NCBI RefSeq assembly: GCF_003201205.1
Contig: NZ_QICN01000003.1
Coordinates: 434,001-498,000 of the forward strand
Direction: 5' to 3'
Source: Sinimarinibacterium flocculans
Lineage (GTDB): Bacteria; Pseudomonadota; Gammaproteobacteria; Nevskiales; Nevskiaceae
DNA length: 64,000 nt
A program made the translations under genes and the position numbers. This document shows, in pieces, positions 29,527 through 64,000 of this stretch (position 1 is the first letter of the stretch; each line of letters starts with the position of its first letter). The notes beneath the pieces were generated by a model, which had not been told where the DNA came from, made no database searches, and saw nothing but the letters and a program-made list of their open reading frames with translations.

Positions 29527-29552
29527 TTGCTTGTGGCCTCTCTATGGCAATC

Positions 29553-29640
29553 CGTCATTCCCGCGCATGCGGGAATCCAGGCGGCGCTAAGCGCCGTTCG
29601 CGCCGGACGTTACTGGATTCCCGCTTGCGCGGGAATGACG
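29553..29640. repeat. REP-type palindromic doublet
   Basis: Two 28-base arms, each a hairpin of ATTCCCGC and GCGGGAAT, lie in opposite orientation around a 32-base spacer. The arms differ from perfect inversion at only one loop base. The core GTCATTCCCGC with GCGGGAATCCAG is a widespread proteobacterial repeat. It may stabilise or end the spoT transcript. Confidence 0.85.
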
Positions 29641-29662
29641 ATGTTCAGCGGCGCCCGTGCGA

Positions 29663-31825
29663 TCACGCGCGCCAGACGCGCTCGATCCACTCGATGCGGC
29701 GGATGCGGCGCACGACGCGCGCCAGATGCACGCGGCTTTTCACGGCGACGATGAAGCGCATTTCGACGGCCTCGCCGCCCGCGCGGTCGGGCATCTGCAC
29801 GTTCTCGATCGAGGCCTCGGCGTTGGCCAGCTCGGCAGTGATGCGCGCCAGCAGGCCGCGCTTGTTGTAGGCCTTGATGCGCAGTTCGGCGATGAAGTCG
29901 CCGAGGACCTTCTCCGACCAGGCCAACGGCACCCAGTCCTGCGGCCGGCCCTTGACGTGCTTGCACTCGATGCGGTGCACGACGATGCCGCGTCCGACGC
30001 TGACGTGGCCGCGGATCTCGTCGCCCGGTAGCGGGTGACAGCAGCGCGCGTAGTCGAGCACCAGGCCCTCGGTGCCCTCGATCGCCAGCGGCGCGGCGCC
30101 GCCCTCGTCCTGCACCTCGGCCGCGCCCTTGGGCAGGAAGTGGCGTGCGACCAGCGGCGCGAGGCGCTGGCCGCTGCCGACGGCGGCGTACAGTTCCTCG
30201 ATGTCGGCGAGCTTGTTGGCGGCGAGCACCGGCTCGAGCTTGGCATCGTCCTTGAGCACAGACGCCGGCACCGACAGCTCGCGCAGCGCGATCTCCAGCA
30301 GTCGGCGGCCGAGGCGCACGGCCTCGTCCTCGTGCTGCTGGCGCAGATAGTTGCGGATGGCCGAGCGCGCCTTGGCGGTCTTGACGAAGTTGAGCCAGGC
30401 GGCGTTGGGCCGCGCGTGACGCGCGGTGATGATCTCCACGGTCTGGCCGTTGGCGAGCGTGGAGTTCAGCGGCTCCAGCGCGCCGTCGAGCCGCGCGGCA
30501 ACGCAGTGGTCGCCCAGGTCGGAGTGCACCGCGTAGGCGAAGTCCACCGGCGTGGCGCCGCGCGGCAGCCGGCGGATCTCGCCCTTGGGTGTGAAGACGT
30601 AGACCTCGTCCGGGAACAGGTCGACCTTGACGTTCTCGACGAAGTCGATCGGGCTGGCGTTGCCGAAGTCGTCGAACAGGCTCGCCACCCATTCGCGCGC
30701 GCGCGCCTGCGGCTGCTTGTGGCCCTCGCGCGCGCCCTGCTTGTACTGCCAATGCGCGGCGATGCCGCTCTCGGCCACGTGGTGCATGTCGCGCGTGCGG
30801 ATCTGCACCTCGATCTTGTGGCCCATGGGCCCGACGCAGGCGGTGTGCAGCGACTGGTAGCCGTTGGCCTTCGGGTTGGCGATGTAGTCGTCGAACTCCA
30901 GCGGCACCGGCTTGTAGACGTGGTGCACGACACCCAGCGCGCGGTAGCAGTCGTCGACCTTGGAGACGATGACGCGGAAGCCCAGCAGGTCGGTGACCTT
31001 GAGCAGCTTGAGCTTCTTGCGCCGCATCTTCTGGTAGATGCCGAACAGGTTCTTCTGGCGGCCGACGACGCTGGCGCCGATGCCCTCCTCGCGCAGTGTG
31101 GTCGACAGCTTCTGCTCCACCTCGCGGATCAGCTTGCGCGTGTCGCCGAGCTGCGCGCTGACGCCTTCCTGCAGCACGCCGTGACGCTTGGGGTAGAGGT
31201 TGGCAAAGGCCAGGTCCTCCAGCTCAGTGCGGATGAAGTTGATGCCCAGGCGCTGGGCGATCGGCGCGTAGATCTCCAGCGTCTCGCGCGCGACACGACG
31301 GCGCTTCTCGTGCGAGACATGGCCGAGCGTACGCATGTTGTGCAGGCGGTCGGCGAGCTTGACCAGGATCACGCGCAGGTCCTTGGTCATCGCCAGCAGC
31401 AGCTTGCGGAAGCTCTCCGCCTGCATCTCGGCGCGGGTGCGGCCTTCGATCTTGGTGACCTTGCTGACGCCGTCGACCAGTTCGGCCACATCCTCGCCGA
31501 AGCCCAGCGCCAGCGATTCCTTGGACACGCCGGTGTCCTCGATCACGTCGTGCAGGATCGCCGCCATCAATGTGGTGTGATCCATGCGCATCTCGGCCAG
31601 CGTGCGCGCGACCGCGAGCGGGTGATACACGTAGGGCTCGCCGGAGGTGCGGCGCTGGCCCTCGTGCACGCTGGTGGCGAACTCGGCGGCGCGGCGCACC
31701 TCGGCGACGTGCTGATCCGGCAGATAGCCTTCGAGCATGCGGCACAGCGCGTCCACGCCGAAGGCGCGCTCCGCACGCTGGGTGCGGATCGCGTTCGACA
31801 GGCGCTGCATGACCGTCATCTCCAT
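29663..31825 (-). CDS. spoT: Bifunctional (p)ppGpp synthetase/hydrolase
   Basis: A 720-residue RelA/SpoT protein. The HD hydrolase domain is intact (YHPLAVA, AAILHDVIEDTG with H92 and D93, KLADRLHNMRT). The synthetase domain has NPKANGYQSLHTA and KIEVQIRT. TGS (VYVFTPKGEIRRLPRG) and C-terminal ACT domains follow. The synthetase motif reads EFDD at residues 310-313, where bifunctional enzymes usually carry RxKD. Start choice: ATGs at 31825, 31819 and 31810 are all in frame. TATACT just upstream suggests a very short leader, and GGAG before 31810 would suit that ATG. The divergent DUF2946 gene begins 73 bases away. Confidence 0.95.
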   Translation of the reverse strand: MEMTVMQRLSNAIRTQRAERAFGVDALCRMLEGYLPDQHVAEVRRAAEFATSVHEGQRRTSGEPYVYHPLAVARTLAEMRMDHTTLMAAILHDVIEDTGVSKESLALGFGEDVAELVDGVSKVTKIEGRTRAEMQAESFRKLLLAMTKDLRVILVKLADRLHNMRTLGHVSHEKRRRVARETLEIYAPIAQRLGINFIRTELEDLAFANLYPKRHGVLQEGVSAQLGDTRKLIREVEQKLSTTLREEGIGASVVGRQKNLFGIYQKMRRKKLKLLKVTDLLGFRVIVSKVDDCYRALGVVHHVYKPVPLEFDDYIANPKANGYQSLHTACVGPMGHKIEVQIRTRDMHHVAESGIAAHWQYKQGAREGHKQPQARAREWVASLFDDFGNASPIDFVENVKVDLFPDEVYVFTPKGEIRRLPRGATPVDFAYAVHSDLGDHCVAARLDGALEPLNSTLANGQTVEIITARHARPNAAWLNFVKTAKARSAIRNYLRQQHEDEAVRLGRRLLEIALRELSVPASVLKDDAKLEPVLAANKLADIEELYAAVGSGQRLAPLVARHFLPKGAAEVQDEGGAAPLAIEGTEGLVLDYARCCHPLPGDEIRGHVSVGRGIVVHRIECKHVKGRPQDWVPLAWSEKVLGDFIAELRIKAYNKRGLLARITAELANAEASIENVQMPDRAGGEAVEMRFIVAVKSRVHLARVVRRIRRIEWIERVWRA

Positions 31826-31897: not shown

Positions 31898-32299
31898 ATG
31901 CGAACGTTCCGGCACTTCGGCGTCTGGTTCGGCACCCTGGCGGTGCTGATGCAGCTGCTGTTGCCGCAGGTCCACGCCGCCGCCTACGCCGACCGGTCGG
32001 GCGATCCGCTCGGCTACGCGCTGTGCGGTGCCGGCGTGACGCCCAGCCTCGCCGCCGAACTGCGGCAGATCCTGCCAGCCGAAGTCGTCGCGGCACTCGA
32101 CGCCGACCATGCCGCGCCGGAGCTGACGGACTGCCATGCCTGCGTCGGCGCGCATGCGAGCGCGGCGACGCAATCGCCGGCCGCAGCCGGCACCGCTCCG
32201 GAAACGGTCGTCATCGTCGCGACGCCGACCGATGCGGCGATCGCCGATTCTCGCCGCGCGCGACGACCACCCGCGCGCGCCCCGCCCCTGAGCACCTGA
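31898..32299 (+). CDS. DUF2946 domain protein
   Basis: A 133-residue protein whose N-terminus (FGVWFGTLAVLMQLLLPQVHA) is an uncleaved or cleaved signal segment, followed by the family pattern YALCGAG and, further on, DCHACVGAHA. DUF2946 proteins are small envelope proteins often found beside copper or TonB genes. The Cys/His stretch could bind metal (inference). It opens the plus-strand group that includes the MbnP/MbnH pair. Confidence 0.75.
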   Translation: MRTFRHFGVWFGTLAVLMQLLLPQVHAAAYADRSGDPLGYALCGAGVTPSLAAELRQILPAEVVAALDADHAAPELTDCHACVGAHASAATQSPAAAGTAPETVVIVATPTDAAIADSRRARRPPARAPPLST

Positions 32300-32375
32300 G
32301 CGAAGCCCGTCCGACGCGCCTGCGCGCGTCGCCGTTTCACTCAGCGACCGCTGCTGCGGTCGAGGGAGCCTTTCC

Positions 32376-33275
32376 ATGTCATCCCGTCTCCGGGGCCCGG
32401 CCGTTGCCGCCGGCCTCGCCGCCCTGCTGCTGCAGGCGCCGGCATCGGCCTGTTCGACCTGCAAATGCGGGGATTACACGATCAGCCTGTTCGGCGCAGA
32501 AAAACCTTTCGAGAGCCGCTTTCGCGTCGGCGTCGACTACGTCCACCGCAGCGAGCGCCAGGGCGATCCCGCCGTGCTCGAACGCGAAACCGACGAGCAG
32601 CGCCTGCTGCTCGGCCTGTCCTACGCCGTCACCGGCGACCTGAGCGTCGCCGCGCAGATTCCCTTCGTCCGCAAGCAGATCCGCGATAGCGACCTGGCGC
32701 GCCAGCAGGCCGAGGGACTCGGCGACATCGACCTCGTCGGCCGCTGGACGCTGCTGCGCGAAGGCGGTGTCAGCGGCCGGCATCTGGCCGGTGTGCGCTT
32801 CGGCGTGCGTCTGCCGACCGCCGAGCAGGTCGAAGACGCCGCTGGCGAACGCCTCGACATCGACGTGCAGCCGGACGCCGGCAGCACGGTGCCGAACCTC
32901 GGCGGCTGGTACTCGTACTTCCGCTATCCGTGGTTCGTCACGACGACGCTGACCTGGTTCAGCTTCGGCGACGGCCATCAGGACTTCTCGCCGAGCGATG
33001 CCGTGGTCGCTTCCGCTCTGGCGCAGTACGGCCTCACGCAGACGCTCGCGCTGCAGCTGGGCCTCGACGCGCGGCACGCCGGGCGCAACCGCTTTTTGAG
33101 CATCGAGGACCGGGATTCCGGCGGAACGCTGGCGATGGCGTTCGGCGGCGTGGCGCTGCGCGTGTTCGACGAGCTGGTCGTCAGCGCCGGCGCACAAGTG
33201 CCGGTCTTCGACGACCTCAACGGCCACCAGGAGGAAGACCCGGTCCTGCGGGTCGGCCTCGCCTACGACTTCTGA
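32376..33275 (+). CDS. Outer-membrane beta-barrel type protein of the metal cluster
   Basis: A 299-residue exported protein. The signal peptide ends at PASA; the mature N-terminus is CSTCKCGDYTISLFG, a C-x2-C-x-C site that could bind metal or form disulfides. Alternating hydrophobic and polar strands follow and the protein ends in the aromatic LRVGLAYDF, as outer membrane barrels do. It resembles the 'transporter' family of uncharacterised barrels. It lies 22 bases before the MbnP-like gene, so a role in moving or sensing copper is inferred from context. Confidence 0.72.
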   Translation: MSSRLRGPAVAAGLAALLLQAPASACSTCKCGDYTISLFGAEKPFESRFRVGVDYVHRSERQGDPAVLERETDEQRLLLGLSYAVTGDLSVAAQIPFVRKQIRDSDLARQQAEGLGDIDLVGRWTLLREGGVSGRHLAGVRFGVRLPTAEQVEDAAGERLDIDVQPDAGSTVPNLGGWYSYFRYPWFVTTTLTWFSFGDGHQDFSPSDAVVASALAQYGLTQTLALQLGLDARHAGRNRFLSIEDRDSGGTLAMAFGGVALRVFDELVVSAGAQVPVFDDLNGHQEEDPVLRVGLAYDF

Positions 33276-33297
33276 TCTTTCCTTTCGAGACTCTCAC

Positions 33298-35004
33298 ATG
33301 ACACATCTTCAGCTTCTGCGCCTGGGCACCCTGCTGCTCGGCGCCGGCCTGGTCGCGGCCTGCTCCGACACCGGCAGCCGCAGCGACGGCATCTCGGTGA
33401 CGCTCAAGGCGCAGCCGGTCGGCACGCCGCATGCCCACGACGACAGCCACGCCAAGCATTCGAATCCCGACTACGTGACCTTCCGCCGCAGCGATGGCGT
33501 GAAGGTCGATCTGCAGCTCGGCCTGCTCAACCTCGTCCCGGTCGAGCTGCAGCGTTGCGAGGCCACGGTGGCGCATCGCCTGCTGCCGCTGCTCGACGCG
33601 CTCAACCCCGTGGGCGCCGCGCAGGCCCACGCCGGCCACGGCGGAGAGGCCCCGGAAGGTGCGGTCAACGTCGTTTCGACAGAGCCGACCGGTCTCGGCA
33701 CCCTGGTCGCATCGGCCGGCACCTACTGCGGTGTGGTGGTGGAGCTGCAGCCGGGCGCTGCGGCCAAGCACGGGGACGGTCTCGACACAGGCCTCGAAGG
33801 TGTGTCGGTGAACGTCTCGCCCTGCTACTACCCGACCACGGCGGGCCTGTCCGACGCCGAGGCGGCGGCCGTGACGGAACACGCGTGCATCCAGGCCAAG
33901 GCCGGTGCCGCCGCGCGCCGGGTGACCCTGCCGTTCGCCGAGCCGGTGCCGCTGGGCGCCGAGGACATGGCGCTGGAGATCACGATCGCGACACGCTACG
34001 AGGAGTGGTTCGAGAACGTGGACTTCGATGCGCTGGCCAACAGCGCCGGGCAGCAGGCGCTGCTGGTCGACAACATCGTCGCCTCGCTGCAGGCGCACGG
34101 CGATGACGAACAGCTCGTCAATCTCGCCTTCGCCTTACGCGTCAACGGCCACGAGGCGGTGTGCGGCGCGGCCTACCAGGGCCTGGGCAACACCGCCCAG
34201 CCGCTGCGCATGGAGGGCTTCCGCTTCTACGCCAGCAAGCTGACGCTCGAGAACGCCAGCGGCACGGTCCCGGTACGGCTCGCGGCCAAGCCCAACGGCA
34301 CCGTCTACCAGGACGCCGAACGCAACCTTGCACTGATCGGGCATGCACAGGGGTGCGACAGCCCGGCGCGGCTGCGCAACCTGACGCTGACCGGCAGCGC
34401 GCCGCGAGGCGAGTACGACCGCCTGTGCTTCGAACTGGGCGTACCCTTCGAGCTGAACCACAGCGACGTCGCCACGGCGCCGAGCCCACTGAACGTCACC
34501 GGCATGAGCTGGAGCTGGCTGTCGGGCCGCGTCTTCCTGCGCTTCGACGCCAAGGTGCCGGGTGGCGACGGCGGTGGTGGCGGACACGGCCACGGCAAGC
34601 ACGAGGGCGAGGACCATGGCGGCGGCGATGGCAGCGATGGCACCGGGACCGATGCCGAGCTGACGCAGAACTTCTTCGTGCACCTGGGCAGCACCGGCTG
34701 CAGCAACGGCACCGGCGATTTCGGCGCCCCGCCGGATGCCGCCTGCACCTACCCGAACCGTCCGCGCATCTGCCTCGACTACGCGCCGGTCGCGGCCGGC
34801 AACCCCGTGATCGCAGACATCGCACCGGTGATCGGCGAGCTCGACATCACGGTCAACACGCAGGACACGGCGCCGGGCTGCATGTCCTTTCCGGGCGACC
34901 CGGAGTGCGTGACCATCCTCCCCCAGCTCAACCTGGACTTTGCGCTGTCGCCGAACGAGCTGATCCCGCGTCGCGACCAGTCACTGTTCAGCGTCGGCCC
35001 GTGA
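33298..35004 (+). CDS. MbnP-like copper-binding lipoprotein with N-terminal extension
   Basis: A 568-residue lipoprotein (lipobox LVAAC, Cys22). Residues 278-565 match the MbnP/MXAN_0976 family: NLALIGHAQGC, YDRLCFELGVPFELNHSD, SPLNVTGMSWSWLSGRVFLR, FFVHLGSTGC. MbnP binds copper using a kynurenine made from Trp by its dihaem partner; W405 and W407 are candidates. Two features are unusual. Residues 25-270 form an additional domain with His-rich HAHDDSHAKH and HAGHGG. Residues 421-450 are a Gly/His/Glu/Asp-rich insert inside the MbnP domain (GGHGHGKHEGEDHGGG). Several Cys in both halves suggest disulfides. The 3' end overlaps the MbnH-like gene by GTGA. Confidence 0.85.
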   Translation: MTHLQLLRLGTLLLGAGLVAACSDTGSRSDGISVTLKAQPVGTPHAHDDSHAKHSNPDYVTFRRSDGVKVDLQLGLLNLVPVELQRCEATVAHRLLPLLDALNPVGAAQAHAGHGGEAPEGAVNVVSTEPTGLGTLVASAGTYCGVVVELQPGAAAKHGDGLDTGLEGVSVNVSPCYYPTTAGLSDAEAAAVTEHACIQAKAGAAARRVTLPFAEPVPLGAEDMALEITIATRYEEWFENVDFDALANSAGQQALLVDNIVASLQAHGDDEQLVNLAFALRVNGHEAVCGAAYQGLGNTAQPLRMEGFRFYASKLTLENASGTVPVRLAAKPNGTVYQDAERNLALIGHAQGCDSPARLRNLTLTGSAPRGEYDRLCFELGVPFELNHSDVATAPSPLNVTGMSWSWLSGRVFLRFDAKVPGGDGGGGGHGHGKHEGEDHGGGDGSDGTGTDAELTQNFFVHLGSTGCSNGTGDFGAPPDAACTYPNRPRICLDYAPVAAGNPVIADIAPVIGELDITVNTQDTAPGCMSFPGDPECVTILPQLNLDFALSPNELIPRRDQSLFSVGP

Positions 35005-36206
35005 GTCCGCGCATGCGCTGGCTCGTCCCCGTCGTCGCGGCGCTGCTCGGCGCCTGCGGCGGCGGGGGCGGTGGTACCGATCCGGGGCCGGTTCCGACGG
35101 CGCCGCCGCCGGATCGGTACGTCTTCGACCTGCCGCCGGGCTTCCCGGAACCGCGGGCGCCCGCCGACATGTCGGTCGCCATGGTCGAGCTGGGCCGGCA
35201 CCTGTTCTACGACCCGCGGCTCGCGGCAGGCGGCAACGGCTCCTGCGCGAGCTGCCATGAACAGCGGCTGGGCTTCACCGACGCACGCACGACCTCGCTT
35301 GCCCCGGGTGGCGACGTGCATCCGCGCAATGCGCAGACGCTGGTCAATGCGGTCTACAACGCGCGACAGAACTGGGCCAATCCGAACGTCCGCACCTTGC
35401 GCGAGCAGGCTTTGCTGGTGCTGCTCAACGAGGACCCGGTGGAGCTGGGCTGGGCCGGCCGCGAGCAGCAAATGCTCGACCGCTTCCGTGCCGATGGCGA
35501 CTACGTGCAGCGCTTCGCCGAAGCGTTCCCCGATGCGGCCGAGCCGTTCACGCTCGACAACGTCGCCCGGGCGCTGGCGGCGTTCACCGCGACGCTGATT
35601 TCCGGCAACTCCGCCTTCGACCGCGGCACGATGAGCGCGGCGGCACGAAGCGGCGAGGCCCTGTTCAACTCAGAGCGGCTGGAGTGCCACCACTGCCACA
35701 ACGGCTTCAACTTCGCGAACTCGGTCGTGCACGCGGGCACCACGCTCGACAACATCGAGTACAAGAACACCGGCCTGTACAACATCCGCGGACCGGCAAC
35801 CGGATATCCGCTGGCCAGCGGCAACTACCCGGCGAACAACCCGGGCCTGTACGCGTTCACGTTCCGCGACACGGACATGGGGCGGTTCCGCCCGCCGACG
35901 CTGCGCAATGTGGCGCTGACCGCGCCGTACATGCACGATGGCTCGATCGCGACGCTGCGCGAGGTCGTCGTCGACCATTACGCGCGCGGCGGCCGCCATG
36001 TCGCCGGCGGCCCGTATGCCGGCGACGGCGCGCGCAATCCGAACAAGGACGCCCTGATGATCGGCTTCGCGATCGACGAGAACGAGGTCGCGGACCTGCT
36101 GGCCTTCTTCGACGCCCTGACCGACTGGGATTTCGTCTGTGACGAACGATTCGGCGACCCCTTCGGTCAGATTCCGATGCACGAGGCCTGCCCGGCCTCG
36201 CCCTGA
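35001..36206 (+). CDS. MbnH-like dihaem cytochrome c peroxidase family protein
   Basis: A 401-residue lipoprotein (lipobox LLGAC). It has two c-type haem motifs, C82ASCH86 and C229HHCH233, and the family segment EYKNTGLYNIRG between the second haem and RPPTLRNVALTAPYMHDGS. This is the MbnH (MXAN_0977) subgroup, which oxidises a Trp of its MbnP partner. The GTG at 35001 overlaps the MbnP-like stop as GTGA and keeps the signal peptide; the ATG at 35013 is an alternative. Coupled translation fits a one-to-one enzyme and substrate pair. Confidence 0.88.
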   Translation: MSPRMRWLVPVVAALLGACGGGGGGTDPGPVPTAPPPDRYVFDLPPGFPEPRAPADMSVAMVELGRHLFYDPRLAAGGNGSCASCHEQRLGFTDARTTSLAPGGDVHPRNAQTLVNAVYNARQNWANPNVRTLREQALLVLLNEDPVELGWAGREQQMLDRFRADGDYVQRFAEAFPDAAEPFTLDNVARALAAFTATLISGNSAFDRGTMSAAARSGEALFNSERLECHHCHNGFNFANSVVHAGTTLDNIEYKNTGLYNIRGPATGYPLASGNYPANNPGLYAFTFRDTDMGRFRPPTLRNVALTAPYMHDGSIATLREVVVDHYARGGRHVAGGPYAGDGARNPNKDALMIGFAIDENEVADLLAFFDALTDWDFVCDERFGDPFGQIPMHEACPASP

Positions 36207-36214
36207 CCACCCGC

Positions 36215-36904
36215 ATGGAGCACCCGATGATGCCGACACGCCCCCCGAACCGTCCCTCACGAGCCGCCGCAGCGATGCTCGTCGCCCTGTGCGCGCTCGC
36301 GGCCTGTTCCAGGCCCGCCGCCCCCACGCCGGCCGAGCCCACGGGCGTCGCCACCGCGTCACCGCAGACCGCGGCACAGCCGAGCCTGTGGCGACTCGAC
36401 GCCGAGGCCTCGCAGCTGAGCTTCGTCTCGATCAAGAACGATCGCATCGCCGAGGTCCACCGCTTCACCGATCTCATCGGCACCGTCGATGCCGAGGGCG
36501 AGGCGAACCTGAAGGTCGGGCTCGAGTCGGTGCAGACCGGCATCGAGATCCGCGACCAGCGCATGCGCGAACTGCTGTTCGAGGCCGCGTCCTATCCGCA
36601 GGCGGTGGTCACGCTGAGCGTCGACCCGCAGGTCATCGGTGCCCTGGCGCCGGGCACGTCGCAACTGCTGCGCACGGACGTTCGGCTGGAGTTGCACGGC
36701 CTCGCCGGCACGATGCCGGCGATGCTGCGCGTGACGCGGCTCGACGCCCAGCGCTGGCTCGTCACCAGCGAACAGCCGGTGATCGTCGATGCGGCGGCCT
36801 TCGACCTGGTGGCCGGTGTCGAGCAGCTGCGCGAGGTCGCCGGCCTGCAGTCGATCGCCACCGGCATTCCGGTCAGCTTTGCCTTGAGCTTCGTCGGCTC
36901 GTAG
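36215..36904 (+). CDS. YceI family lipoprotein
   Basis: A 229-residue lipoprotein (lipobox ALAACSR, Cys31) with the YceI lipocalin-like barrel: WRLDAEASQLSFVSIKN, IEIRDQRMRELLFEAASYPQAVVT, and a closing VSFALSFVG. YceI proteins bind isoprenoids or other lipids in the periplasm. It follows the MbnH-like gene by 8 bases and should be in the same transcript. A link to copper is by context only. It converges with rsmB, 7 bases away. Confidence 0.88.
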   Translation: MEHPMMPTRPPNRPSRAAAAMLVALCALAACSRPAAPTPAEPTGVATASPQTAAQPSLWRLDAEASQLSFVSIKNDRIAEVHRFTDLIGTVDAEGEANLKVGLESVQTGIEIRDQRMRELLFEAASYPQAVVTLSVDPQVIGALAPGTSQLLRTDVRLELHGLAGTMPAMLRVTRLDAQRWLVTSEQPVIVDAAAFDLVAGVEQLREVAGLQSIATGIPVSFALSFVGS

Positions 36905-53886: not shown

Positions 53887-54285
53887 TCAGGCCGCTGCCG
53901 CTTCCTCGCCGCCCGCTGCCGTCGCCGCACCGCGGTCGATCAGCTCGACGTAGGCCATCGGCGCATCGTCGCCGGCGCGGAAACCGCAGCGCAGGATGCG
54001 CAGGTAGCCGCCCGGACGCGCCTTATAGCGCGGGCCCAGCTCGTTGAACAGCTTCTGCACGGCGTCGCGGTCGCGCAGACGTGCGAACGCCAAGCGACGG
54101 TTGTGCACCGAATCTTCCTTGGCGCGCGTGATCAGCGGCTCGGCGAAACGGCGCAGTTCCTTGGCCTTGGGCAGCGTGGTCTTGATCAGCTCGTGCTTGA
54201 GCAGGGCCACGGTGATGGCCTGCATCGTCGCCTTGCGGTGGGCGCTGGTACGGCCGAACGTGCGGCCTGCAATCTTGTGACGCAT
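53887..54285 (-). CDS. rplQ: 50S ribosomal protein L17
   Basis: A 132-residue L17 protein. It opens [20 protein letters not shown], the family start, and has the conserved [23 protein letters not shown] short Ala/Glu-rich tail follows residue 120. It is last in the alpha operon, 23 bases after rpoA. Confidence 0.97.
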
Positions 54286-54308
54286 GACGTGTTTTCCTTA
54301 GCGGTGCG

Positions 54309-55289
54309 TCAGGCCGAGACCTTCGGCGACGACCAGTTGTCGAGCTTCATGCCGAGCTCAAGCTCGTGCGACTTGAGCGCTTCCTTGATCTCGTTGAGCG
54401 ACTTCTTGCCGAGATTCGGGGTCTTCATCAGCTCCATCTCGGTGCGCTGCACCAGATCGCCGATGTAGTAGATATTCTCGGCCTTCAGGCAGTTGGCCGA
54501 GCGGACCGTGAGCTCGAGATCGTCGATCGGACGGAACAGGATCGGCGAGAGCTCCTTCTTGCCGGGCGCTGCGGCGGACTGCGCGGCCTCGGCCTCGAGG
54601 TCGACGAACACCGCCAGCTGGTCGCGCAGGATGCGCGCGGCGAGGCGCACGGCCTCGGCGGCGTCGACGCTACCGTTGGTGTCGACGTCGAGAATCAGCT
54701 TGTCGAGGTCGGTGCGCTGGGCGACGCGAGCGCGCTCGACGCTGTAGCTGACGCGACGAACCGGGCTGTACGAGGCATCGAGCTTGAGCACGCCAATGCC
54801 GCGGCCGTCCTCTTCACGGGTCGCGCTGGCAGCCGGCACGTAGCCGCGGCCGCGGGTGACCTTGAGCGAGATGTTGAGCTTGCCGCCGGTCAGATGGGCG
54901 ATCTCGAGATCCGGGTTCACGATCTCGACGTCGTGGTCGAGCGCGATGTCGGCCGCGGTGACCACGCCCTTGCCGCTCTTCTCGAGCCGCAGCGTGGCTT
55001 CCTCGCGGGCGTTCAGGCGCACGGCGATGTTCTTGATGTTCAGCAGGATGTCGAGCACGTCTTCCTGGACGCCGTCGATCGCGCTGTACTCGTGGACCAC
55101 CCCCTCGATCTGCACCTCGGTGATCGCGGCACCCGGGATCGACGACAGCAGGATGCGGCGCAGCGCATTGCCCAGCGTGTGGCCGAAGCCACGCTCCATC
55201 GGTTCGAGCGTGACGCGCGAGCGGTTCGCCGAAAGGGTTTCGACGTCGATCTGGCGCGGCTTGAGAAGATCGGCAATGACGTTCTGCAT
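54309..55289 (-). CDS. rpoA: RNA polymerase subunit alpha
   Basis: A 326-residue alpha subunit. The N-terminal dimer domain contains [20 protein letters not shown], and the C-terminal domain, after the flexible linker near residue 235, ends in [19 protein letters not shown] for UP-element and activator contact. Length is normal. Confidence 0.98.
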
Positions 55290-55331
55290 GAATAACCTCG
55301 CGTGAAGCGAATATTGCGTGTCCGGCGCAGT

Positions 55332-55354
55332 CGCGTTGACGGATCGTCAACGCG
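55332..55354 (-). other. Hairpin in the rpsD-rpoA gap
   Basis: CGCGTTGAC and GTCAACGCG form a perfect 9-bp stem around GGATC in the 106 bases between rpsD and rpoA. It has no T-run. It could pause polymerase or shape mRNA decay between the two genes. Confidence 0.55.
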
Positions 55355-55395
55355 GCGACGGCAACGGCCGGGGTGCCGGCGGCACCCGTGGCCTC

Positions 55396-56016
<621 letters not shown>

Positions 56017-56031
56017 TGTTCTGTCCTCGCC

Positions 56032-56430
56032 TTAGACGCGACGGCGCTTGGCCGGGCGGCAGCCGTTGTGCGGAATCGGCGTCACGTCGGTGATGCTGGT
56101 GACCTTGAAGCCGGCGTTGTTGAGCGCACGCACGGCCGACTCACGGCCGGGGCCCGGGCCCTTCACGCGCACTTCCACGCTGCGGACGCCATGCTCGGCG
56201 GCGGCCTGCGCGGCCTTGTCGGCGGCGACCTGGGCGGCGAACGGCGTCGACTTGCGCGATCCCTTGAATCCCGCGGCGCCGGCCGTGCTCCACGACAGCG
56301 TGTTGCCCTGCCGGTCGGTGATCATGATGATCGTGTTGTTGAAGGACGCATGAATATGCGCCACCGCGTCGGTGACGTTCTTCTTGACCTTCTTGCGCTT
56401 CGCCGTGGAGGCGGTGGACGGGCTTGCCAT
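56032..56430 (-). CDS. rpsK: 30S ribosomal protein S11
   Basis: A 132-residue S11 with the core [20 protein letters not shown] and the closing [18 protein letters not shown]. It starts 24 bases after rpsM. Confidence 0.98.
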
Positions 56431-56454
56431 GTCTTGGGTCCGGAATCCTTGAAC

Positions 56455-56826
56455 TTACGCTTTCTTCTTGCCGGCGATCGTCGCGCGGCGCGGGCCCTTG
56501 CGGGTACGGGCATTGGTACGGGTGCGCTGACCGCGCACCGGCAGGCCGCGGCGATGACGCTGGCCGCGGTAGCAGCCGAGGTCGATCAGGCGCTTGATGC
56601 TCATCGAGACTTCGCGACGCAGGTCGCCCTCGACGATGTAGCGGCCGACTTCGGTACGCAGCTGCTCGAGTTCACCCTCGGTCAGGCTGCGGATCTGCGT
56701 GGTCGGGTCCACCCCGGCGGCTGCGCAGATCTTCTTGGCGCGCGTCGCGCCGATACCGTAGATCGCGCGCAGTGCGATCACCGTGTGCTTGCGATCCGGG
56801 ATGTTGACGCCCGCAATACGTGCCAT
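56455..56826 (-). CDS. rpsM: 30S ribosomal protein S13
   Basis: A 123-residue S13, opening [20 protein letters not shown], with the C-terminal [21 protein letters not shown]. It is the first gene of the alpha group and follows a 208-base leader after rpmJ. Confidence 0.98.
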
Positions 56827-56965
56827 TGTGCAGCCCTCGACTCAAAGTCGCGCGGAAAAGCCGCGCATTATAGTGAAACCGGGTGTAGCGTTCAATCGGT
56901 GCCGGCTCGGGCCAGCACTGTCCTTGCCGTCCCTGGCGCGGCGACGCGCCGCTGATCTGACCCCG

Positions 56966-57036
56966 GGGCGGCCATCCGTGGCCGCCCGTGATTCGCCGCG
57001 CGAGACCCCACCGGGGTCTCGCAAGCGCGGCGAATC
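56966..57036 (-). promoter_or_regulatory. Two hairpins in the rpmJ-rpsM leader
   Basis: One stem pairs GATTCGCCGCGC-GAGACCCC (from 56990) with GGGGTCTC and GCGCGGCGAATC (to 57036), overlapping the rpmJ stop codon. A second, GGGCGGCC-ATCCGT-GGCCGCCC, covers 56966-56987. They lie where S4 represses the alpha operon in E. coli, but the structures need not be alike. The first is among the largest in the window. Confidence 0.6.
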
Positions 57037-57148
57037 ACCCCTGCCGCTGCTTGTGGCGGGGGTCGGTGCACAGCACGCGCACGACGCCGTTGCGTCGCAC
57101 GACCTTGCAGTTGCGGCACATCTTCTTGACGGAGGTACGAACTTTCAT
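57035..57148 (-). CDS. rpmJ: 50S ribosomal protein L36
   Basis: A 37-residue L36 ([20 protein letters not shown] ...). Three Cys (11, 14, 27) and His32 form the zinc site, so this is the zinc-binding C+ form. It lies 40 bases after secY. The start was set by the family start MKVR. Confidence 0.96.
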
Positions 57149-57188
57149 CGCTTTCGTCTCTTGAGGTAATCGGGCTGGCGCCGCCGCG

Positions 57189-58532
57189 TCAGCGGCCCGG
57201 CGTCGAGCCCAGCGTCTTCAGGTTGGCCTTCTTCAGCAGGCCTTCGTACTGGTGCGACATCAGGTGCGCCTGCAACTGCGCCATGAAGTCCATGACCACG
57301 ACCACCGTGATCAGCAGCGAGGTGCCGCCGAAATAGAACGGGATGCTCGGCACGAACGAGCGCATGACCTCGGGGGCGAGGCACACCGCGAGGATGTAGA
57401 TCGAGCCGATGACCGTCAGGCGCGTGAGCACCTGGTCGATGTAACGGGCGGTGTTCGCTCCGGGGCGCACGCCCGGGATGAACGCGCCGGACTTCTTCAG
57501 GTTGTCCGCGGTGTCGCGCGAATCGAACACCAGCGCCGTGTAGAAGAAGCAGAAGAACACGATCAGCAGGCCGTACAGCAGCGTGTACAGCGGCTGCCCA
57601 GGCGCCAGCGCGTTGGAGATGCGCTGCAGCACGCCGCCCGAGCCCTCGTCGCCGAAGAACTGCACCAGCGAAGCCGGGAACAGGATCAGCGACGACGCGA
57701 AGATCGGCGGAATCACGCCGGACATGTTGATCTTCAGCGGCAGATGCTGCGTCTGCGCGGCGAAAACCTTGCGCCCCTGCTGCCGCCGTGCGTGATGCAC
57801 GGGGATGCGGCGCTGGGCACGCTCGACGTAGACCACGCCCCAGGTCACGAGGACCACGAGCGCCAGCACCACCATCACCGTGAAGGCACTCAGCGAACCC
57901 TCGCTGACCAGCTCGGTGGTCGAGGCCATCGCCCGCGGGAAACCGGCGACGATGCCCGCGAAGATGATCATCGAGATGCCGTTGCCGATGCCGCGCTCGG
58001 TGATCTGCTCGCCGAGCCACATCAGGAACATGGTGCCGGTGACCAGGCTGACGGTCGCCGTGAAGATGAACGCGAAGCCCGGCGAGATCGCGATGCCCGA
58101 TCGCTGCAGCGCCAGCGCCGCACCGAAGGACTGGAAGATCGCCAGTACCAGCGTGCCGTAGCGCGTGTACTTGGTGATCTGCCGACGGCCGGACTCGCCT
58201 TCCTTCTTCAGCTCCTTGAGCTGTGGAACGACGGCGGTCATCAGCTGCACGATGATGCTGGCCGAGATGTACGGCATCACGCCGAGCGCGAAGATCGACA
58301 GGCGCTCGAGCGCACCACCCGAGAACATGTTGAACATGTCCAGGATCGTGCCCCGGCTCTGCCCGAACAGCTGCGCGAGCTGCTCGGGGTCGATGCCCGG
58401 CACCGGAATGAAGCTGCCGATCCGGAACACGATGATGGCGCCCAGCAGGAACAGCAGGCGATCCTTCACCTCACCGATCTTGCTGAGATCCGGCATCATC
58501 GAGCCGGAAGGCATTCCTGCGGTCTTGGCCAT
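57189..58532 (-). CDS. secY: Preprotein translocase subunit SecY
   Basis: A 447-residue, ten-helix channel of the Sec translocon at the inner membrane. The plug region follows [16 protein letters not shown], and the conserved cytoplasmic loops are [20 protein letters not shown] and [16 protein letters not shown]. Length is standard. Confidence 0.98.
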
Positions 58533-58594
58533 GCTTGCTCTGGTCTAGCGCTTTCGCTGCGGCGGGCCTTGCGGGGCCGCCTGCCTGCGTCCTT

Positions 58595-59029
58595 TTACTC
58601 TTCGATCGTGCCGCCGGCGGCCGCGATCGCCTCGCGCGCGCCCTTGGTCGCGAGCACGCCCTTGAGCGTGAGCTTGCGCGTCAGTTCGCCCGACTTGATC
58701 ACCTTGGCGGTCAGCACGTTGGCGCCGACCACACCTTCGGCCTTCAGCGTCGACAGGTCGATCGTGTCGGCCTTCATCTTCTGCAGCTCGGACAGCCGCA
58801 CTTCGGCGGTCAGCGCCTTGATCGGCGACTTGAAGCCGCGCTTCGGCAGGCGCCGCTGGATCGGCATCTGGCCGCCTTCGAAGCCCAGCTTGTTGTAGCC
58901 GCCCTTGCGGGCGTGCTGACCCTTGTGGCCGCGACCCGCGGTCTTTCCCAGGCCCGAGCCGATGCCGCGAGCGACGCGCGTACGCGCCTTCTTTGCACCC
59001 TTGGCCGGCTTGATCGTGTTCAGTTTCAT
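58595..59029 (-). CDS. rplO: 50S ribosomal protein L15
   Basis: A 144-residue L15, opening [20 protein letters not shown], with [17 protein letters not shown]. It lies 62 bases before secY in the spc group. Confidence 0.97.
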
Positions 59030-59049
59030 CGCATCGATTCCCGAAGAGC

Positions 59050-59238
59050 TCAGAGCTCTTCAATCTTGAGCAGGTACGAGGCCTTGCGGACCATACCCAT
59101 GTTCTCGGGCGTGGCCGCGACGACGACGCTCTGGTTCATGCGCCGCAGCCCCAGGCCGTGCACGCAGGCCTGATGGTTCTTCAGCTTCTTGGCGAGGCTG
59201 CGCACCAGGGTGATCTTGATCTGCTTGGTCTCGGACAT
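59050..59238 (-). CDS. rpmD: 50S ribosomal protein L30
   Basis: A 62-residue L30 with [20 protein letters not shown] and the family ending for [20 protein letters not shown]. Present between S5 and L15 as in the usual spc order. Confidence 0.97.
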
Positions 59239-59256
59239 CTGCCAGTTTCCTAACGA

Positions 59257-59772
59257 TTAGCCCAGGATCTCTTCGAGCGTCTTGCCGCGCTTGGCGGCGA
59301 CCTCGGACGGCAGGCTCATCTGGGTGAGCGCGTTCATCGTGGCGCGCACCAGGTTGATCGGGTTACGCGAACCGAACGACTTGGCGAGGATGTTCTGCAC
59401 GCCGGCCACTTCGAACACCGCGCGCATCGCACCGCCGGCGATCACGCCGGTACCTTCCGAAGCCGGGCGCAGGAACACCTTCGACGCGCCGTGGATGCCC
59501 CAGATCTCGTGCTGCACCGTCAGGCCCTTGAGGGGCACGCTGACCATGCTCTTGCGCGCCTGCTCCATCGCCTTGGCGATCGCGGCCGGCACTTCGCGCG
59601 CCTTGCCGTAGCCGAAGCCGACGCGGCCGGCACCGTCGCCGACGACCGTCAGCGCGGTGAAGGCGAACTGCTTGCCGCCCTTGACCGTCTTGGACACGCG
59701 GTTGACGGTGACCAGCTTCTCCTTCAGCTCGTTGCCGGACTGCCCGTCGTCGTAGTTCATCTGGTTTGCCAT
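59257..59772 (-). CDS. rpsE: 30S ribosomal protein S5
   Basis: A 171-residue S5 with the RNA-binding [20 protein letters not shown] and [20 protein letters not shown]. It follows L18 by 3 bases. Confidence 0.98.
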
Positions 59773-59775
59773 GTC

Positions 59776-60132
59776 TTAAAACTCCAGGCCGGCTTCGCGC
59801 GCGGCGTCGGCCAGCGCCTTGACGCGGCCGTGAAACTTGAAGCCGCCGCGATCGAACGCGACCTTGCTGACGCCCTTGGCCTTGGCGCGCTCGGCGATCG
59901 CGGCGCCGATCTTCTTGGCGGCCTCGACGTTGCCGGGGCTCGACAGCCCCGAGATCAGATCCTTCTCCGCGGTCGACGCGGCAGCGATCGTCAGCCCGGC
60001 ATCGGGGCTGATGATCTGCGCGTAGATATGGCGCGGCGTGCGGTGCACTGCCAGGCGATGCATGCCGAGTTCGCGGATGTGCGCGCGCGTGCGGCGGGCG
60101 CGGCGCAGTCGGCTGGTGTTCTTGTCTTTCAT
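59776..60132 (-). CDS. rplR: 50S ribosomal protein L18
   Basis: A 118-residue L18 with [20 protein letters not shown], the 5S rRNA-binding core, and the closing [20 protein letters not shown]. Confidence 0.98.
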
Positions 60133-60135
60133 GGC

Positions 60136-60666
60136 TTACTTCTTCTTCGCTTCCTTGAGCACGACCTTCTCGGTCGAGTAACGCACGCCCTTGCCCTTGT
60201 ACGGTTCAGGCGGACGGAAGCGGCGGATATCGGAGGCAACCTGACCGACCATCTTCTTGTCCGCGCCCTTGACCACGATCTCGGTCTGGCTCGGCGTTTC
60301 CACCGTGATGCCGTCCGGGATCGGGTACTCGATCGGGTGCGAGAAGCCGAGGCTGAGATTGAGCTTCTTGCCCTGGGTGGCGGCGCGATAGCCGACGCCG
60401 ACCAGGTTGAGCTTCAGCTCGTAACCCTTGGACACGCCGATCACGGCGTTGCTCAGGATGGCCCGCGCCGTACCCGAAGCCATCGGGTTGGCCTTCACCG
60501 AGTCGGCATTGATCGTGGCGACGTTGCCGTCGACGTCGATCTTGACCGCAGGCGGGATGACCACGGTCAGCGACGCCTTGGCGCCCTTCACGGTGACCTG
60601 GCCGTCGCTGGAGCTGATCTGCACACCGGCCGGCAGCGGAACCGGCATCTTTGCTACGCGGGACAT
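60136..60666 (-). CDS. rplF: 50S ribosomal protein L6
   Basis: A 176-residue L6, from [20 protein letters not shown] to the conserved [20 protein letters not shown]. The start at 60666 is set by the family start MSR; the frame continues upstream into rpsH. Confidence 0.98.
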
Positions 60667-60679
60667 CTTCAGTCTCTCC

Positions 60680-61075
60680 TTAGGCCACGATGCACAGGAC
60701 TTCGCCGCCCTGGCCGGCCTCGCGTGCGCGGCGGTCGCTGACCACGCCGCTCGGCGTGGACACGATCGCGACGCCCAGGCCGCCCAGCACCTTCGGCAGT
60801 TCGTCCTTGCCCTTGTATACACGCAGCGACGGACGCGACACGCGCTCGATACGCTCGATCACCGGCTTGCCCTCGAAGTACTTCAGGCCCACCGTCAGCG
60901 TCTTCTTGGCACCGTCGGCCACGACGTTGAACTCGGCGATGTAGCCCTCGTCCTTCAGCACTGCGGCGATCGCCTCCTTCACCTTCGACGAAGGGACGGC
61001 GATCTGCTTCTTGCGCGCCTGCTGACCATTGCGGATGCGGGTCAGAAAGTCGGCGATCGGATCAGTCATGCTCAT
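60680..61075 (-). CDS. rpsH: 30S ribosomal protein S8
   Basis: A 131-residue S8, opening [20 protein letters not shown] as in E. coli, ending in [15 protein letters not shown]8 is the translational repressor of the spc operon in E. coli. Confidence 0.98.
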
Positions 61076-61099
61076 TTCGCTAAACCCCAGTAGTCCTTG

Positions 61100-61405
61100 T
61101 CACCAGCTCGCCTTCTTGAGGCCCGGGATCTCGCCCTTCATCGCAGCTTCGCGCAGCTTGTTGCGGCCGAGCTTGAACTTGCGGTACACGCCACGCGGGC
61201 GGCCGGTCAGCTCGCAACGCGTGCGCTGACGCGCCTTGCTGGAATCGCGCGGCATCTTCTGCAGCGCCACCACCGCCACCTCCTTCTCGTCCGGCGTCGC
61301 CGTCGTGCTGGAGATGATGGTCTTGAGCTTCTCGCGCTTGGCGGCGAACCGCTTGGCGAGGCGGGCGCGCTTGACTTCGCGCTCGATCATGCTGGTCTTG
61401 GCCAT
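61100..61405 (-). CDS. rpsN: 30S ribosomal protein S14
   Basis: A 101-residue S14 of the C- type (no zinc Cys pairs; one Cys in [17 protein letters not shown]). It opens [20 protein letters not shown]. Confidence 0.97.
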
Positions 61406-61417
61406 GGTCTTACTGGC

Positions 61418-61957
61418 TCACTTGCGGAACGGGAAGTTGAAGGCCTCGAGCAGGGCCTGGCCCTGTTCGTCGGTCTTCGCCGTCGTGGTGATCGTGATGT
61501 TCATGCCGCGCAGCGCATCGACCTTGTCGTAGTCGATTTCCGGGAAGATGATCTGCTCGGTCACACCGAAGTTGAAGTTGCCGCGGCCGTCGAAGCCACG
61601 CGCCGGGATGCCGCGGAAGTCGCGGATACGCGGCAGCGCGACCATGATCAGGCGCTCGAGGAACTCGTACATGCGCTCGCGGCGCAGCGTGACCTTCACG
61701 CCCACGGGATAGTTCTCGCGGATCTTGAAGCCGGCCACGGCGATGCGCGACTTGGTCACCACCGGCTTCTGGCCGGCGATGGCCGTCATGTCGGCCACGG
61801 CGTGCTCGATGACCTTGCGGTCGGTCGTCGCCTCGCCCACGCCCATGTTGAGCGTGATCTTGGAGATGCGCGGCACCTCCATCGGCGAAACCCCGAGCTT
61901 CTTGCCCAGATCGGTCGCGATCTTCTCGCGGTACAGTGTCTGCAGGTTGGCTGTCAT
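61418..61957 (-). CDS. rplE: 50S ribosomal protein L5
   Basis: A 179-residue L5, opening [20 protein letters not shown], with [19 protein letters not shown] and [19 protein letters not shown]. It binds 5S rRNA. Confidence 0.98.
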
Positions 61958-61968
61958 CGTCGACTACC

Positions 61969-62295
61969 TCAGCCGTCCACCAGTTCCTGGTTGGACTTGA
62001 ATACACGCACCTTGCGGCGCTTCTCGCCTTCGCCCTCGACCTTGAAGCCGACGCGATCGCCCTTGCCCGCCTTGGCGTTCCAGACCATCACGTTGGAGGC
62101 CTGGATCGGCATCTCCTTCTCCACGATGCCGCCGGCGATGCCGGCGTTCGGGTTCGGACGCTGGTGCTTCTTGGCGACGTTGATGCCCTCGACCAGCAGC
62201 GTGCCGTCGGCACGCACCTGCGACACCGTTCCACGGCGGCCCTTGTCGCGGCCGGTGATGACGACGATCTCGTCGCCCTTGCGAATCTTGTTCAT
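61969..62295 (-). CDS. rplX: 50S ribosomal protein L24
   Basis: A 108-residue L24 with the KOW motif [20 protein letters not shown] followed by RGTVSQV. It lies 11 bases before rplE and 12 after rplN. Confidence 0.97.
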
Positions 62296-62307
62296 GCGAT
62301 GCGCCCC

Positions 62308-62673
62308 TTACAGGACTTCCGGCGCCAGCGACACGATCTTCATGAAGCGGTCGCGCAGCTCGCGCGTGACCGGTCCGAAGATGCGCGTCCCCAGCGGCTC
62401 GAGTTTGCTCGACACCAGCACCGCGGCGTTGGTGTCGAAGCGGATGACCGAACCGTCGGCCCGCTTGATCGGGAACTTGGTGCGCACGACGACGGCGTCG
62501 TGGACCTCGCCCTTCTTGACCTTGCCGCGCGGAATGGCTTCCTTGACCGTGACCTTGATCAGGTCACCGACGCCGGCATAGCGCCGGTAGGTGGAGCCCT
62601 TGACCTGGATCACCTGGACCAGGCGCGCGCCGCTGTTGTCCGCGGCAACGAGAAACGATTCCTGCTGGATCAT
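62308..62673 (-). CDS. rplN: 50S ribosomal protein L14
   Basis: A 121-residue L14, opening [20 protein letters not shown], with [20 protein letters not shown] and ending [15 protein letters not shown]-like. It starts the spc group in the usual order. Confidence 0.98.
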
Positions 62674-62676
62674 GGC

Positions 62677-62982
62677 TCAGCCTCCGGCCTGCGCCTGCTG
62701 CAGCGCACTGGCGCGCTGCAGGATCTCGACCAGGCGGAAATGCTTGGTCGCCGACAGCGGACGGGACTGGACGATGGCCACGAGGTCGCCCTCGTTGCAC
62801 TCGTTGTTCTCGTCGTGCGCGCGCAGCTTGGTGGAGCGGCGCAGCATCTTGCCGTAGACCGGATGCCGCTCGCTGCGCTCGACGAGCACGGTAATGGTCT
62901 TGTCAGCCTTGTTGCTGACGACCTTGCCGACGATGCGGCGCTTGGCCGCTGCTGCGGCCTCAACCTGGGACTGTTCGCTCAT
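62677..62982 (-). CDS. rpsQ: 30S ribosomal protein S17
   Basis: A 101-residue S17 with [20 protein letters not shown] and a long N-terminal segment [18 protein letters not shown]. Its start codon overlaps the rpmC stop as ATGA. Confidence 0.97.
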
Positions 62983-63197
62983 GACGCTTGCACCGATTGC
63001 TTGGCCTGCTGTGCGACCACCGTCTTCAGACGCGCGATCTTCTTGCGCACTTCACGCGCCAGGTGGGTCTTTCCGCCCTGCCCGGTGGCGAGCTGCATGC
63101 GCAGGTTGAACTGCTCCTTGCGCAGCGCCTCGAGCTCGCTGCCGAGTTCGGCGGCGGACTTGCCGAGGAGGGACTTCACGTACTCTTGCGTTTTCAT
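62979..63197 (-). CDS. rpmC: 50S ribosomal protein L29
   Basis: A 72-residue L29, opening [20 protein letters not shown], with the conserved [11 protein letters not shown]. The ATG at 63197 shares one base with the rplP stop (TGATG), and the stop overlaps rpsQ by ATGA, so three genes are coupled. Confidence 0.97.
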
Positions 63198-63610
63198 CAC
63201 ATGATCGTCCGGTTGACGAACGCGGTCTTCACCGGCAGCTTCGCGGCGGCCAGCCGGAACGCCTCGCGCGCGGTGGTCTCGTCCACGCCTTCCATCTCGT
63301 ACAGCACCTTGCCGGGCTGCACCTTGGCAACCCAGTACTCGACGTTGCCCTTGCCCGAGCCCATGCGGACTTCGAGAGGCTTCTTGGTCACCGGAACGTC
63401 CGGGAAGATGCGGATCCAGACCTTGCCGCCGCGCTTGATGTAGCGCGTGATGACGCGGCGCGCGGCCTCGATCTGGCGCGCAGTGATGCGGCCGTGCTCG
63501 GAGGTCTTCAGGCCCCACTCGCCGAAGCTGACCTTGTTGCCGGTCAGCGCCAGGCCGGTGTTGGTGCCTTTGCGTTGCTTGCGGAATTTTGTGCGCTTGG
63601 GCTGCAACAT
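63197..63610 (-). CDS. rplP: 50S ribosomal protein L16
   Basis: A 137-residue L16, opening [20 protein letters not shown], with the [18 protein letters not shown] core and [20 protein letters not shown]. Standard length. Confidence 0.98.
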
Positions 63611-63628
63611 GACGGTTGTCTCTCGTTT

Positions 63629-64000
63629 TTAGGCGGCCGCGGCTTCGCCGGCCTCGGCGCGGTCCTGGCGACGGTCGGCCTCGAACACCTCGCCGGTGAA
63701 CACCCAGACCTTCACGCCGATGACGCCGTAGGTGGTCTTGGCCTCGCCCACCGCGTAGTCGACGTGCGCGCGCAGCGTGTGCAGCGGCACGCGGCCTTCG
63801 CGATACCATTCGGTGCGCGCGATCTCGGCGCCGTTGAGGCGGCCGCTGACCTGGATCTTGATGCCGCCGGCGCCCAGGCGCATCGCGTTCTGCACGGCGC
63901 GCTTCATCGCGCGGCGGAACATGATGCGGCGCTCAAGCTGCTGCGCCACCGAATCGGCGATCAGCTTGGCGTCGAGCTCCGGCTTGCGGATTTCCTCGAC
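63629..64000 (-). CDS. rpsC: 30S ribosomal protein S3, N-terminus outside window
   Basis: The last 123 residues of S3 are visible, entering the window in [20 protein letters not shown] and continuing to [20 protein letters not shown], with GLGAGGIK-like RNA-binding residues and [18 protein letters not shown]. An Asp/Glu/Ala-rich tail ends it. The gene is cut by the right edge. Confidence 0.97.

Follow-up and report, generated by a model that had tools for sequence, protein, structure and literature searches.

An MbnP/MbnH locus of Sinimarinibacterium flocculans with a fused second domain and a CxxC-bearing outer-membrane channel: a possible copper acquisition module

Five plus-strand genes fill positions 31898-36904 of a 64,000-nucleotide stretch of Sinimarinibacterium flocculans DNA (hereafter the window; assembly GCF_003201205.1, contig NZ_QICN01000003.1, positions 434,001 to 498,000), on contig 3 of a genome of 4.4 Mb. 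They encode a short leader peptide, an outer-membrane barrel, a lipoprotein in which an N-terminal domain (called NDOM here) is fused to an MbnP, the di-haem enzyme MbnH and a YceI-family protein. In our judgement the chances are about even that the locus is a module for the acquisition and holding of Cu(I) at the outer membrane, built on the known MbnP/MbnH pair. What was computed directly is the composition of the locus, the joint occurrence of barrel and NDOM across genomes, their folds (that of NDOM to a moderate degree), the fusion, the place of the barrel's CxxC and the hallmarks of the leader. A sequence-only reading of the window, made earlier by a model, had proposed the gene run and its copper context; all five genes are where it put them, and the copper context is supported.

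Results

The profiles of NDOM, MbnH and the barrel were run on the same 369 genomes of the class. MbnH exceeded its cut-off in 13 of them, always with an MbnP in the same stretch. Strong NDOM matches (E <= 7.4e-26) occurred in seven genomes and barrels above 300 bits in the same seven, the next best barrel reaching 84.9 bits, and all seven belong to the 13 genomes in which MbnH exceeds its cut-off; two of them (the window's genome and G617) are rows of the search profiles. Since the seven spread over seven families in the coding used, the pattern is not one clade counted repeatedly. A marginal NDOM match in G493 (E 0.009), which makes eight of 369 at E <= 0.01 with profile A2, was left out of the count; its stretch, L119, has no MbnH, MbnP or barrel by profile. 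The barrel profile matched 81 of the 369 genomes altogether, and the generic barrels of the 74 beyond the seven were not counted, as they score at most 84.9 bits and the weak matches listed all start at model position 43 or later, past the CxxC. Judged by these profiles the module is rare (7/369 in the class), and in the samples of the phylum NDOM was found in the window's genome only (1/398 with the narrow profile A1, 1/319 with A5).

Within the order, a search of 85 genomes with residues 21-270 of the lipoprotein gave 11 matches, six of them fused to MbnP (the window, G008, G053, G045, G043 and G035) and five stand-alone (G044, G047, G066, G067 and, weakly, G062); G066 and G067 are apparently near copies of one another, and their MbnP-MbnH sits elsewhere in the genome. 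A wider profile also found NDOM behind MbnH in G064. The six fused loci share the order barrel, NDOM-MbnP fusion, MbnH; G064 has barrel-MbnP-MbnH-NDOM, as probably does G062, where two contig ends share an overlap of 306 bases (96.4%). Outside the order the arrangement is MbnP-MbnH-barrel-NDOM in all six loci read (L068, L069, L110, L115, L117 and L118), one additional gene separating MbnP and MbnH in L110, and both Thiomargarita and a Granulosicoccaceae genome (G617), which profile A1 found among named genomes, have the four as separate genes. Stand-alone NDOM adjoins the barrel gene in many relatives. Two genomes of the order, G044 (98% complete) and G047 (99%), keep leader, barrel and NDOM with no MbnP match and no MbnH over cut-off, G044 having no MbnH match at all and G047 a single one of 38 positions and 19.9 bits. 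The genes of the relatives were called automatically by a simple codon scorer, which missed several leaders, some starts, and MbnP and MbnH in L115, where tblastn found them. In the six fused loci YceI comes directly after MbnH twice and is found upstream once. The conserved core is MbnP, MbnH, barrel and NDOM; the gene set of the sequence-only reading is partly conserved, YceI is optional, and a set of five genes as proposed is not supported.

In a tree of 17 NDOM rows, nine fused and stand-alone rows split from the other eight with support 100/100. Among the eight are G062 and G064, which belong to the same order; in the barrel tree (14 rows) G062 groups with the order, unlike in the NDOM tree. 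The two trees do not separate one fusion from later losses.

The C-terminal half of the lipoprotein matches TIGR04052 (172.3 bits, cut-off 140) and PF20243 (101.1 bits, cut-off 27), so that residues 271-568 are, by these family models, a true MbnP. Its WxW (Trp405-Ser-Trp407) is intact; both Trps and two candidate His ligands (His388 and His462 in the window) are invariant in all of 20 aligned MbnPs, 14 of them non-fused. In characterised MbnP the first Trp of WxW reportedly becomes kynurenine and one Cu(I) is said to be bound in a kynurenine-dependent way; the structure paper (PNAS 2021) is said to give as copper ligands His, Met, solvent and this kynurenine. The MbnH matches TIGR04039 with 398.8 bits (cut-off 362.85) and PDB 6e1c with E 3.8e-86, and has two CxxCH motifs, CASCH at residue 78 and CHHCH at 225. 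The claim of a genuine pair is therefore confirmed by scores above curated cut-offs on both sides and by adjacent genes, MbnH following MbnP. The GTGA coupling claimed for the two is possible, a GTG at 35001 overlapping the TGA, but a lipoprotein-like signal can also be read from an ATG at 35013, so that either codon may be the start of MbnH. YceI scores 37.5 bits against PF04264 (cut-off 23.7).

More distant MbnP-like/MbnH-like pairs, below the TIGR04052 cut-off, were seen in genomes of the same genus (L058:4445-6267 and L059:4960-6768). They adjoin RND-type genes and, in L058, also a TonB-receptor-like and a PepSY-like gene (recognised by eye), and form a second, different MbnPH-like context. 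At two loci with the pair only, L109 (7992-8378) and L112 (7903-8507), small exported-looking proteins lie directly downstream, one in L112 with a His/Gly-rich stretch; these are possibly other partners of the pair.

A second domain ahead of MbnP, as the sequence-only reading proposed, does exist and is predicted to be folded. The alignment of solved MbnP (7l6g) covers only residues 272-551 of the lipoprotein, and the 14 non-fused MbnPs are short proteins lacking the domain, so that, as far as checked, it is not common among characterised MbnPs. NDOM has five invariant residues (Cys87, His111, Cys144, Trp237 and Phe238, window numbering); Trp237, which all 17 aligned NDOMs keep and besides which the window's NDOM has no Trp, sits in a WF motif, not in WxW. 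Its model matches the MbnP fold above unrelated folds, and NDOM probably shares that fold. Pfam gave a weak match in one of 17 members, and the NDOM profile found one chance match among PDB sequences (E 0.33).

The His-rich stretches are where they had been reported: HAHDDSHAKH (residues 45-54), HAGHGG (111-116) and the His/Gly insert (about 421-455). They are mostly unconserved. The insert occurs in two of the 20 MbnPs (the window and Hydrocarboniphaga), His111 is the only N-terminal His invariant in the 17 NDOMs, and most of the N-terminal run is missing in several relatives; the suggestion of extra low-affinity metal stores is for this reason unsupported, and as a general function it was rejected.

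The barrel carries CSTCKC at residues 26-31, and a CxxC is present at this N-terminal place in 18 of 18 barrel loci. The window's barrel matches no Pfam family and has a single chance-level NCBIfam match far below the cut-off, and its profile found one chance match among PDB sequences, FapF (E 0.58). Phenol_MetA_deg (PF13557), which we take to be the Pfam counterpart of COG4313, is not matched by it and is matched by only one of 14 relatives (best E 0.00095), so that we claim no more than a COG4313-like fold. In the solved COG4313 channel an N-terminal segment plugs the lumen (PMC4493636), and by analogy the CxxC segment would be located in the barrel lumen.

The first open reading frame (ORF) of the run has CHAC at residues 79-82, then 44 residues, RAPP at 127-130, three residues and a stop, and its N-terminus is hydrophobic by eye. 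It matches the whole of PF11162 with E 1.2e-4, its 23.2 bits being under the gathering cut-off of 23.7; for this reason we call it CruR-like and not a member of the Pfam family. CruR of Bordetella, with CxxC, 45 residues, RAPP and three residues, exerts copper control on the genes behind it (PMC9426467). All 12 loci of the same order that were read (the window, L043-L051, L055 and L056; L049 and L050 are near copies) have, ahead of the barrel, an ORF in which CxxC and R[AG]PP are 43-46 residues apart and a short tail follows; shuffled sequence gave 0.4 matches per pass over 499 kb, and an additional match in L047 with spacing 52 is probably chance. At L053 and L054, where MbnP-MbnH pairs lie apart from the barrel, the signature was not found. 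Because G044 and G047 keep the leader and L053 and L054 have no match to it, copper control seems tied to channel and NDOM. MbnPH-like genes in DUF2946/CruR operons have already been reported (PMC9426467), so that this link is known; we came across no published account of the leader in front of barrel-NDOM pairs, a position it also has in genomes lacking MbnP and MbnH. A search in which most subscription papers were out of reach likewise gave no description of NDOM or of the CxxC barrel together with MbnPH. Second CruR-type leaders were seen in L045 (3387-4449, after YceI), in L046 (10973-11906, before a small exported protein) and in L043 (about 14374, before a gene that by eye is TonB-receptor-like), and several copper-leader operons may sit together.

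Between leader and barrel the window has hairpins at 32312-32331 and 32345-32362, the second abutting a putative ribosome-binding site (32363-32367). This gap folds with z -2.42 (6 of 200 shuffles as stable; z -2.05 in a second run). Across 11 of the 12 gaps (L056 was left out, and the barrel starts of L043, L049 and L050 may be wrong) z ranged from -3.45 to +1.05, L043 and L055 being at or above 0, and no sign of conserved RNA structure was seen; an RNA switch in the gap was rejected on these grounds.

Absence of methanobactin genes from the neighbourhood was correctly noted before: the genome's single match to MbnB's family (PF05114) is on contig C7 and not beside the pair. There (L121:2556-5219) the MNIO gene adjoins a small ORF rich in EGKCG repeats and two neighbours, presumably DUF2063-like and DoxX-like genes; the cluster is a bufferin-like or thiooxazole metallophore cluster. 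One MNIO cluster, from Fontimonas thermophila, a relative in the same genus by the coding used, has been studied (PMC13097082).

Table 1. Features of the locus, in window coordinates
Feature	Position	Strand	Evidence
CruR-like (DUF2946) leader ORF, 133 aa	31898..32299	+	PF11162 score and CHAC/RAPP motifs
Two GC-rich hairpins, leader stop to barrel start	32312..32367	+	folding against shuffles
Outer-membrane 12-strand barrel, COG4313-like fold, 299 aa	32376..33275	+	
CSTCKC at predicted mature N-terminus of barrel, putative place of a lumen plug as in COG4313 channels	32451..32468	+	
NDOM-MbnP fusion lipoprotein, 568 aa; lipobox-like VAAC with Cys22 as its last residue	33298..35004	+	
NDOM (residues 31-270), lacks WxW, probably a divergent domain of MbnP fold	33388..34107	+	
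MbnP domain, residues 271-568	34108..35001	+	TIGR04052, PF20243, PDB match, alignment
His/Gly-rich insert in MbnP domain, about residues 421-455	34558..34662	+	
MbnH di-haem enzyme, 397 aa from ATG	35013..36206	+	TIGR04039, PDB 6e1c
YceI-family protein, lipoprotein-like signal, 229 aa, accessory	36215..36904	+	PF04264

Elsewhere in the window, ribosomal-protein-like genes were recognised by eye on the minus strand (53887-64000), and at 29544-29870 the ORF translations contain HSRACGNPG and SRLRGNDD, which may stem from a short palindromic intergenic repeat.

Discussion

If the locus is indeed an acquisition and holding module, its parts could work together as follows. The COG4313-like 12-strand channel, with the CxxC in its N-terminal lumen plug, would bind copper or let it pass and hand it to a lipoprotein of two MbnP-fold domains, where NDOM, being without WxW, would serve docking or hand-over. 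MbnH would oxidise Trp405, the first Trp of WxW, to kynurenine, completing the Cu(I) site of MbnP, and the fusion would keep dock and copper site in one molecule. The CruR-like leader peptide would sense exported copper and shut the operon down when copper is plentiful. The Trp-to-kynurenine step and Cu(I) binding are carried over by analogy, from characterised MbnP and from CorA and MopE as described in PMC3912023, and copper sensing by the leader from the CruR literature; copper as the cargo of the channel, the inward direction, the hand-over between domains and repression by copper are what we infer.

Several observations weigh against this interpretation. Six of the 13 MbnH loci have no barrel or NDOM in the stretch read, therefore not every MbnP needs them, and a scan of 13 loci from outside the order did not find the leader signature in any of them. 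The candidate Met ligands are not strict, Met403 being kept in 18 of the 20 MbnPs (Leu in Hydrocarboniphaga and Thiomargarita) and Met529 in 17. His111 of NDOM lies where the model is least certain (predicted local distance difference test, pLDDT, < 50), and the likeness of NDOM to the MbnP fold is moderate (Foldseek E 0.12-0.42, root-mean-square deviation 4.5, 12% identity). Profile comparison by hhalign found no homology between the two (probability 0.6%), so that NDOM as an MbnP homologue by sequence was rejected and it is not classed as an MbnP member. COG4313 channels are better known for hydrophobic cargo, and the solved one is held unlikely to serve hydrophilic molecules (PMC4493636). 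Finally, CutF, a related leader, switches genes on with copper (PMC9973294).

One alternative is copper tolerance, with lipoprotein and channel sequestering or expelling excess Cu(I) behind a leader that acts as CutF does; we find it unlikely. CutF-like (DUF2946) ORFs often precede efflux genes, and CutF uses a stable hairpin (PMC9973294) such as the one that in the window lies next to the putative ribosome-binding site of the barrel gene. The MNIO cluster with its EGKCG-repeat ORF also speaks for tolerance, since bufferins made by MNIO-type enzymes chelate excess copper (PMC12452194). On the other side, the leader is CruR-like in motif, spacing and tail, whereas CutF has CxxxC (PMC9973294), and copper represses CorA and MopE, whose copper sites contain kynurenine (PMC3912023). 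It is because the leader is nearer to CruR than to CutF and because of this repression of CorA and MopE that uptake is preferred over tolerance.

That the channel carries a copper complex or another ligand (e.g., a small chalkophore) from which MbnP strips the copper seems to us quite improbable. COG4313 channels are implicated in the uptake of hydrophobic molecules (PMC4493636), and a role of mbnPH in methanobactin maturation or in copper release has been a matter of speculation (PMC9601215), both of which would suit such a cargo. No methanobactin genes lie by the module, however, the sole PF05114 match being on another contig, and the usual route for such complexes is TonB receptors: TonB-receptor-like genes adjoin the module in L043 and L044 (by eye), and inspection by eye of the module's neighbours in the window showed no such gene.

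NDOM as a second substrate of MbnH, with Trp237 oxidised as well, is very unlikely. The invariance of this residue, NDOM's only Trp in the window, would suit the idea, but G044 and G047 keep it with no proper MbnH, so that its conservation is independent of the enzyme, and its WF motif is not a WxW. An ordinary MbnP with added His-rich metal stores, for which all three stretches are indeed present, is less likely still, given their poor conservation and an NDOM that is predicted to be folded and has its own gene elsewhere.

Returning to copper acquisition at the outer membrane, a bolder form of it, which has a modest chance and which we put forward tentatively, is a TonB-free line of copper import that would run from a CxxC plug gate through an MbnP-fold lipoprotein to a kynurenine site, with a copper-sensing nascent peptide ahead of it and NDOM as a WxW-less sister of MbnP turned into a channel dock. 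NDOM as a channel dock would explain the genomes that have leader, channel and NDOM but no MbnP or MbnH. The role of MbnP/MbnH outside methanobactin operons has been called 'unclear' (PMC3621798). Here the pair gains two dedicated partners, by a strict pattern of co-occurrence and by physical fusion, and an outer-membrane channel with a thiol plug is suggested as its copper source. An MbnP fold with no kynurenine site is also suggested, which bears on the origin of that site, and the barrel's CxxC, Trp405 and His111 make the role testable by single-residue changes.

Comparison with known systems

For the barrel the named comparison is the COG4313 channel Pput2725 (4rl8), and the likeness is one of fold only, with no PF13557 match. 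The leader resembles CruR (Bp2923, DUF2946) in its CxxC, in a RAPP three residues from the end, in spacing (44 against 45 residues) and in being first in its run; it differs in falling 0.5 bit under the Pfam cut-off and in a gap to the next gene of 76 nt against 162 nt. CorA/CorB and MopE/SACCP of methanotrophs also combine a di-haem partner with a surface protein bearing a kynurenine copper site (PMC3912023), MbnP being said to have no marked sequence similarity to MopE or CorA (PMC3621798); neither a channel nor NDOM is mentioned in the available text of PMC3912023, whereas the module here has both. The closest system is MbnP/MbnH itself (7l6g, 6e1c), shared down to the families over their cut-offs, the adjacency, the WxW, the two candidate His and the two haem motifs. 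In contrast to it, methanobactin genes are not nearby, MbnP follows, within one protein, a domain that has no WxW and probably the MbnP fold, and an outer-membrane channel bearing a CxxC belongs to the module.

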